Shown here: piece by piece, positions 2,359-2,937 of the stretch
How the letters are laid out: every line of letters starts with the position of its first letter
How positions within the stretch are numbered: position 1 is the first letter of the stretch
NCBI RefSeq assembly: GCF_002367995.1
Contig: NZ_AP018207.1
Coordinates: forward strand, 310,001 to 374,000
From: Calothrix brevissima NIES-22
GTDB taxonomy: Bacteria; Cyanobacteriota; Cyanobacteriia; Cyanobacteriales; Nostocaceae
Direction of reading: 5' to 3'
Length of the DNA: 64,000 nt
Notes under the pieces: generated by a model
What the model saw: the letters and a program-made list of their open reading frames with translations, nothing else
What the model was told of the DNA's origin: nothing
The model's database searches: none
Position numbers and translations under genes: made by a program

Positions 2359-2379
2359 CAAATAATTAGTCACTGTACA
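2359..2379 (-). repeat. Second copy of the CAST left-end terminus (21 bp)
   Basis: These 21 bp are identical, in the same orientation, to the transposon terminus at 2835-2855, including the terminal palindrome TGTACA (2374-2379). The inner TnsB-type sites that follow the 2855 terminus are not present here. It may be the eroded left end of an older element pushed away from the tRNA by a later insertion, or a product of rearrangement. Confidence 0.6.
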
Positions 2380-2394
2380 CCTGACCAGTCTCAC

Positions 2395-2645
2395 GTGACA
2401 ACAACCCTCCCGGAACTGGGTGAGTTGAAAGCCTGGCTCCCCATAAGCTAAAACTGCCAATCGAGGTGGCAACAATCCTCCCGGAAATGAGTGGGTTGAA
2501 AGCAAACCGTTGTACACAGATGCGAATAGCCATCATGTGGCAACAACCCTACCGGAACTGGGTGGGTTGGAAGTCCCTAACAAGAGGCATTAATTTTTTG
2601 ATTAGAAAGTGGCAATAATCCTCGCGTAACTGGGTAGCTTGGAAG
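2395..2645 (+). CRISPR. Decayed CRISPR array, four 37-bp repeats, type V-K (Cas12k)-like
   Basis: Repeats lie at 2395-2431, 2466-2502, 2537-2573 and 2609-2645, each exactly 37 bp. Spacers are 34, 34 and 35 bp. A consensus runs from GTGGCAACAACCCTCCCGG to ACTGGGTGGGTTGAAAG. It resembles the direct repeats of cyanobacterial type V-K systems, which end in GGGTGGGTTGAAAG. Every copy carries private substitutions: the first has GTGAC and GTGAGTT, the second AAATGAG, and the last two end TTGGAAG. No cas gene, leader or tracrRNA was found nearby. The array reads toward the homing unit and transposon end, as in CAST elements. It is probably inactive. Confidence 0.9.
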
Positions 2646-2721
2646 AACATGGTGGATATGTGCATTAAAACTTTCCCATGTGCCAGTACCCATCAAGTAC
2701 CTGGAGGGATTATCATAATTT

Positions 2722-2759
2722 TTATTAGGGAGGGTTGAAAGAGAGCGCTACGTTGACAT
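2722..2759 (+). ncRNA. Delocalised CAST homing crRNA (truncated repeat plus tRNA-Val spacer)
   Basis: After the array, only the 3' part of a repeat is recognisable, ending GGGAGGGTTGAAAG at 2741. The following 18 bases, AGAGCGCTACGTTGACAT (2742-2759), equal the sense sequence of the tRNA-Val gene at 2899-2916. Type V-K CASTs encode just such a separate short-spacer crRNA between the array and the left end. It directs the element to a tRNA gene. Whether it is still transcribed cannot be seen. Confidence 0.85.
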
Positions 2760-2855
2760 TATCACTAAAGCCTCTGTCAATAAATGACATTAATCTGTCA
2801 CTGGCGCTTAAACGACATTAACTTGTCCCGACGACAAATAATTAGTCACTGTACA
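2754..2855 (-). mobile_element. Left end of a type V-K CAST (Tn7-like), with TnsB-type sites
   Basis: Read on the minus strand from 2855, the sequence starts TGTACAGTGAC and carries a series of TGAC...GTC sites. They lie at about 2833-2855, 2814-2828 and 2785-2800, with a partial one at 2754-2763. Start sequence, site spacing and the homing crRNA just inside match the left end of the Scytonema CAST as I remember it. The terminus is 61 bp from the tRNA PAM, the known 60-66 bp insertion window. The flank 2856-2860 is AAAAA, a possible 5-bp target duplication. No right end, tnsB, tnsC, tniQ or cas12k is in this window, so this is a remnant. Confidence 0.85.
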
Positions 2856-2863
2856 AAAAATAA

Positions 2864-2937
2864 TGGACGTAACTGGATTCGAACCAGTGACCTCTACGAT
2901 GTCAACGTAGCGCTCTAACCAACTGAGCTATACGTCC
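2864..2937 (-). tRNA. tRNA-Val (anticodon GAC)
   Basis: The minus strand folds as a complete cloverleaf. It has a GGACGTA/TACGTCC acceptor stem, a D arm with AGCTCAGTTGGTTAGAGC, and an anticodon stem CTACG/CGTAG closing loop TTGACAT with anticodon GAC. The T arm contains GGTTCGAATCC. CCA is not encoded. The segment 2899-2916 is the protospacer of the CAST homing crRNA, and the four bases 5' of it on the sense strand are GGTT, a fit to the V-K GTN PAM. The transposon end lies just 3' of the gene, leaving it intact. Confidence 0.97.

Follow-up and report, generated by a model that had tools for sequence, protein, structure and literature searches.

A remnant of a type V-K CRISPR-associated transposon (CAST) lies beside a tRNA-Val(gac) gene of Calothrix brevissima NIES-22, and its structure probably records two CAST insertions at one attachment site. 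On this reading an older CAST was cut by a different Tn7-like element, and a second V-K CAST, carrying its own guide, landed in front of the scar; the distal part of this second element is missing. Throughout, the window denotes the whole 64,000-nucleotide stretch analysed, C1:310001-374000 of the host genome (9.26 Mb, 9 contigs, completeness rating 100%). The reading of 2359-2379 as an older scar, and of a second insertion in front of the first, is new here.

Anatomy of the CAST remnant

What occupies 2380-2855 is the portion of a type V-K CAST that lies nearest the tRNA. On the tRNA strand, the attachment-site gene tRNA-Val(gac) (2864-2937, minus strand) is followed, after 9 nt, by the terminus TGTACAGTGACTAATTATTTGTC running downwards from 2855, then by more TnsB-type sites (recognised by eye), the complement of the anchor spacer, the complement of the truncated repeat R*, and four repeats between 2645 and 2395. 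The left end (LE) occupies 2760-2855 on the minus strand, with terminus TGTACAGTGAC at 2855, and is 40 bp short. R* (2728-2741, plus strand) matches at 13 of 14 positions, and the adjoining anchor spacer (2742-2759, plus strand) is identical to tRNA-Val over all 18 nt. Its protospacer, the reverse complement of 2742-2759, lies within the tRNA gene at 2899-2916 (minus strand) next to a GTT PAM (2917-2919, minus strand), and 61 nt separate the end of the PAM from the LE. AAAAA just outside the LE (2856-2860) is the presumed 5-bp target site; its partner copy is absent at the other border.

The array consists of four 37-nt repeats on the plus strand that read towards the LE. Compared with the CAST array repeat of the congener G007, repeat 1, the most distant from the LE (2395-2431), and repeat 3 (2537-2573) each match at 35 of 37 positions, repeat 2 (2466-2502) at 34, and repeat 4 (2609-2645), the most decayed, at 30. 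The first-pass annotation had proposed a decayed V-K CAST beside tRNA-Val, with V-K-like repeats pointing to the transposon end, a truncated repeat carrying an 18-nt tRNA-Val spacer, a GTT PAM 61 nt from the terminus, and the LE nearest the target; each of these elements was recovered. The arrangement also agrees with passages of PMC9938897, which place the LE of V-K elements downstream of a tRNA gene that is directed towards it, with the array reversed and facing the LE, and which give about 12 nt for R*, usually 17 nt for the match of the anchor spacer to the tRNA, a GTN PAM, and a PAM-to-LE distance of 46-82 nt with one exception.

The terminus with repeated TnsB-type sites was likewise borne out. 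TGTACAGTGACTAATTATTTGTC matches at 23 of 23 positions at 2855 and at 21 of 23 in a second copy at 2379, while the next-best match over both strands of about 82 kb (18 kb upstream plus the window) reaches 17 of 23 and the best matches in five shuffles range from 15 to 17. Its own second copy aside, the LE terminus is therefore not a chance match. Both copies of the 21-nt terminus in the 9.26-Mb genome are located here (2359-2379 and 2835-2855). The 21-nt terminus by itself occurs in 27 of 388 genomes, the window's included; outside the window's genome it is found at sites other than this one, as a V-K end should be. Furthermore, an alignment of ten LE-to-R* stretches is conserved throughout, which confirms the similarity to V-K left ends; 40 bp near the terminus, about two TnsB-type sites by eye, are missing in the window only and are kept by the nine relatives. 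The piece missing from the window is bordered on each side by the motif TGTCGTCGG in KVJ20, a pattern that slippage would leave.

A probable older scar and a second Tn7-like transposon at the same tRNA

The second copy of the terminus, which the first-pass annotation had left unexplained, spans 2359-2379 on the minus strand and is 21 bp identical to the new LE terminus in the same orientation. It is followed on the minus strand by CTG and then by TGTGATTTAAAGCATAAC (2355-2338), the decayed end of a different Tn7-like transposon. With the new insertion discounted, this end lies 33 nt from the tRNA (9+21+3). Relatives carry a terminus of the same kind directly beside tRNA-Val, followed by TGTGATTTAAACCATAAC or a similar sequence. 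The scar together with the second Tn7-like end aligns with the congeners G002 and G003 over 42 nt at 86% identity (E 8e-7), a homology that is short and includes the scar itself, which counts against the explanation favoured here.

We examined 75 distinct tRNA-Val 3' flanks, which were fetched for a matching LE, guide or tRNA and are thus not a random sample, and which were deduplicated by their first 120 nt. A TGTGAC or TGTGAT of the second kind of end starts 28-33 nt after the tRNA in 20 of them, at 31-33 nt in all but one; 18 continue like the second Tn7-like end (by eye), and in 16 a V-K terminus can still be recognised on the stretch that separates this end from the tRNA (L075 near 19124-19181 is an example of the family). 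In G007, genes of the TnsA-TnsB fusion, TnsC (AAA) and TniQ types adjoin this end. The positions in the flanks and the genes of G007 show that the second end is that of another Tn7-like transposon, presumably protein-guided, which uses the same tRNA at a near-fixed distance and often lies within the LE of a CAST.

Comparison with related strains, as the first-pass annotation had advised, covered seven congeners. An LE-type scar is present in six (mutated in G004 and G005) and absent from G001, and in five the second Tn7-like end begins 28-33 nt from the tRNA. R* with its anchor was found in none of the seven, in the tRNA-Val stretches examined. Hence the most plausible reading of 2359-2379 is that an earlier CAST, inserted at this site, left it as a scar. 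Because the congeners show the scar without the guide, and because the older scar fits at 33 nt, the guide-bearing CAST most likely came after the first one and inserted at the identical base, an event in the lineage of this species. The earlier proposal that the remnant records a past guide-directed insertion is thus supported, with a correction: the insertion is best taken as the second of two, and the left border at 2379/2380 as the end of the older CAST and not as the remnant's own right end. A second CAST that entered the array of a resident CAST, both having since decayed, would also place a second terminus at an array break, as is seen in five loci. We consider such nesting very unlikely, as the sequence beyond the second terminus of the window is not array but the tRNA-Val scar context of the congeners, at the right spacing.

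Between the scar and a gene of the bile-acid-symporter family (182-1060), the region 1244-2309 appears to be debris of gene pieces; its 155-aa frame at 1842-2309 matched no Pfam or NCBIfam model.

Missing components and probable loss of mobility

The first-pass annotation held that no protein genes remain in the remnant, and our searches for cas12k, tniQ and tnsB agree. No cas12k match was found in the window with the Cas12k of G007 as query, nor in the whole genome with the NF038191 profile, a search that the same annotation had called for. Among 98 genomes of the Cas12k relatives set (the window's own genome included, and five genomes searched again), the profile matched at E 0.001 in 57 and above its curated cut-off in 42; in 14 control genomes it matched in two and exceeded the cut-off in none. 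TniQ and Mu-transpos_C (TnsB-type) matches in the window's genome are confined to four other places, which represent a different Tn7-like element in four equal-scoring copies on three contigs (C1:872321, C1:8040281, C2:77640 and C3:3321; TniQ frame of 349 aa, TnsB frame of 946 aa). The matching right end envisaged beyond position 1 did not materialise: nothing above shuffle level was found within 18 kb upstream or in the window. Nor is there a 5-bp target duplication at the junction between array and scar (2380).

Since cas12k has no match in window or genome, the element is a remnant and not a functional member of the V-K CASTs. According to passages of PMC9938897, transcription of the AnCAST array begins near the end of cas12k; with cas12k absent here, the window array is probably promoterless. 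Lacking CAST proteins, part of the LE and probably an array promoter, the remnant should not move by itself.

The same guide at other tRNA-Val loci

A slightly degenerate R*-anchor pattern retrieved 10 other cyanobacterial records from a collection of species genomes, including Nostoc and Amazonocrinis. In nine of them tRNA-Val(gac) lies within about 230 nt of the anchor; the tenth (L103) has no LE left, and its tRNA is found at a distance of 3.5 kb in the opposite orientation. Array and anchor were found only in contigs with tRNA-Val, and thus not at a non-tRNA locus. No viral contig contained the guide pattern. Among the 75 flanks described above, 14 carry the anchor (the window included), all 14 with a GTT PAM and 13 with a match to the LE pattern, at a distance of 57-62 nt.

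Some of the relatives sharing the anchor still carry cas12k. The Cas12k of G007, queried against 18 loci and the window, gave full-length matches in KVJ20 (L105), with one stop codon in the aligned stretch, and in Amazonocrinis (L101), with none. The gene is split in XA010 (L103), and a copy near the locus border is cut in TH1S01 (L102); fragments lie beside two further tRNA-Val LE scars (L118 and L057), L108 is marginal, and the remaining loci of the 18 gave no match. The alternative to a CAST would be repeats that lie near a tRNA by coincidence, or an isolated array belonging to another type of CRISPR. We found no point that speaks for either, and the exact 18-nt guide, the PAM, the distance, the LE homology and the cas12k genes of relatives leave this alternative a negligible probability.

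In the history that we propose, a V-K CAST would first have inserted next to tRNA-Val in a Nostocaceae genome. Insertion of a different Tn7-like element at 33 nt from the tRNA would then have reduced the older LE to about 21-24 bp. A second V-K CAST, using Cas12k and the crRNA of its R*-anchor, would have been aimed at the GTT-flanked tRNA-Val site and would have inserted 61 nt from the PAM, exactly before the old scar. Its tracrRNA, cas12k, cargo, tniQ-tnsC-tnsB and right end, everything from the four repeats to exactly the old terminus, would have gone missing. The anatomy, the guide match, the distance, the congeners with a scar but no guide and the lack of a cas12k match in the genome are observations; that a guide directed the insertion, and that the events followed one another in this way, is what we infer. 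With no target duplication at the junction and no right end found, a full second insertion is not proven.

Fusions of the array to a second terminus

The junction at 2379/2380 joins the truncated array to the older CAST terminus: the new element stops mid-array at 2380, at the first base of the old terminus, and does not repeat the TTTTT found next to the LE on the tRNA strand. Such array-to-LE fusions were observed in five of the 14 anchor loci, namely the window, G054, Nostoc indistinguendum CM1-VF10 (L100), Nostoc sp. LEGE 06077 (L106) and G287 (L122), and all five begin exactly at TGTACA. By eye, the breakpoints fall within a full repeat in L100, L106 and L122, 15 nt past a repeat in the window, and in a degenerate first repeat in G054, where there is another small insertion. 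Among 217 genomes of the family, a repeat-to-LE fusion pattern was found in three; L122, which has no G in between, and G054, where the two parts are too far from each other, escape this pattern.

Our first choice for the origin of the junction, held tentatively, is loss after complete insertion: a full CAST stood before the old scar, and the stretch from mid-array to the old terminus was then removed. TnsB could have attacked the old end and caused an adjacent deletion, or the hairpin that right end, target duplication and old LE should form together could have broken. That cas12k-bearing elements exist at tRNA-Val is in keeping with this account, as is the replicative transposition of V-K elements, which form cointegrates according to passages of PMC11406308, and as are the five fusions that start exactly at TGTACA. 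However, no intermediate was seen among the loci, and five exact endpoints require a special mechanism; fusion exactly to the old terminus is an unlikely endpoint for random deletion and counts against the explanation that we favour.

Short joints between LE and right end (RE) at V-K sites suggest that internal loss down to the termini happens. These measure 31 bp in L182 (G403; the first 40 nt after tRNA-Val) and in L120 (1491-1521), both being joined LE-RE remnants at attachment sites, and 52 bp in L140; a near-duplication is seen only in L182, with four of five bases.

Our second choice, which we regard as rather unlikely, is an abortive one-ended insertion, whereby the LE, R* and part of the array were joined at a target nick, abutting the old scar, and no duplication was made. 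It accounts at once for the few hundred LE-proximal base pairs retained, the exact junction and the missing duplication. Yet no precedent was found in the literature passages covered, and one of the five fusions, L122, does have a far-side duplication.

This fusion in G287 is part of a 680-bp unit (L122:1501-2180) composed of a V-K LE, the R*-anchor, six repeats and a 51-bp palindromic right terminus, with the same 5 bp on both sides (ACAAG/CTTGT by strand). It is possibly a mini-CAST that carries a guide and no protein genes. It adjoins what looks like the LE of another V-K subtype, and G500, G488 and G493 carry that LE without the unit. Its comparison with plasmids gave a single 47-bp terminus match. 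Across seven distinct outward-facing terminus pairs in the collected loci, a full 5/5 target duplication was seen in two, L122 and L023. The latter (L023:1501-1767, G050) is a 267-bp element with V-K-like termini and a TTTAA duplication, in which we saw no array or guide by eye; it splits a gene, both halves of which match the TrwB-type coupling-protein family.

The strict 51-bp palindrome occurs in three of the 217 family genomes. We considered whether it is a natural right end and rejected this: of six genomes inspected near tnsB, G005, G070 and G078 have terminus-like candidates without an inner inverted terminus, and G012, G032 and G007 have none that is clear. The palindrome is therefore better read as joined LE and RE termini, on candidates none of which comes from a tRNA-Val-anchored CAST itself.

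The G287 unit, the neighbouring LE without it in three genomes and the two complete duplications favour a third account, in which a mobile mini-CAST (LE, R*-anchor, array and joined-termini palindrome, no protein genes) owes its movement to a helper acting in trans. The right terminus of the one in the window would have collapsed onto the old scar through slippage between the identical 21-mers. Against this, the window has half the palindrome and no duplication, and L106 has the full 51-bp palindrome as in L122 but no duplication; the pre-insertion state of L106 was not seen in 10 other genomes of its genus. Moreover, G287 itself has only fragments of cas12k, and G412, G475, G487 and G484, whose tRNA flanks are closer to that of G287, show other states. 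We place this account third and consider it improbable. The same low standing applies to a broader conjecture, that V-K CASTs spawn short daughters without protein genes (own guide and array between termini) which are moved in trans to tRNA-Val, that the window holds a collapsed one, and that tRNA-Val of Nostocaceae is contested ground, with RNA-guided and protein-guided Tn7-like elements cutting into one another's ends time and again.

A spacer matching a transposase gene

The spacer at 2503-2536 (plus strand) is identical over 34 of 34 nt to L044:8666-8699 of the cyanobacterium G031, within a tnsB-type transposase gene located beside tnsC- and tniQ-type genes, and its role may be to target a competing Tn7-like element. 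The triplet before the match is TTC, so that this is not a GTN target as it stands, which counts against the explanation favoured here. The spacer had no match in the window's own genome, in plasmids or in phages, and the array as a whole had none in plasmids and phages.

Significance and relation to known systems

It is already known that V-K CASTs home to tRNA genes and that they degenerate, and passages of PMC8649781 note Tn7-like elements inserted inside or beside one another. The window adds an insertion record that preserves the guide and its target, shows where the element landed, and can be compared with the site in congeners that lack this element. It suggests that a V-K attachment site becomes reusable when about one terminal site is all that remains of an earlier element, a point relevant to target immunity. 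Furthermore, the five loci with array-to-LE fusions suggest a recurrent event, of relevance to the ways in which these replicative transposons are broken or shortened inside their hosts. No description of such fusions, or of guide-bearing units without protein genes, was found in the titles and abstract openings of the open-licence literature.

For short units with transposon termini, the comparison class is the MITEs of other bacterial transposons. The units of 680 bp in L122 and 267 bp in L023 resemble these in having termini and 5-bp duplications and in being too short for the CAST proteins. Unlike MITEs, L122 carries a homing guide and an array, and its movement in trans is hypothetical.

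The window resembles the type V-K CASTs ShCAST, AcCAST and AnCAST in the type of its LE terminus, its 37-nt repeats, the direction of the array towards the LE, its R* with a short tRNA spacer, its GTN PAM and its PAM-to-LE distance. It differs from them in that cas12k, tnsB, tniQ and the right end were not found, the LE is shortened, and the array is fused to an older LE. Like the degenerated cyanobacterial CASTs with lost or decayed cas12k described in passages of PMC9938897, it is a V-K element; whereas those, as far as these passages go, were found via cas12k or its regulator, the remnant in the window consists of ends and guides, at a site seemingly hit twice.
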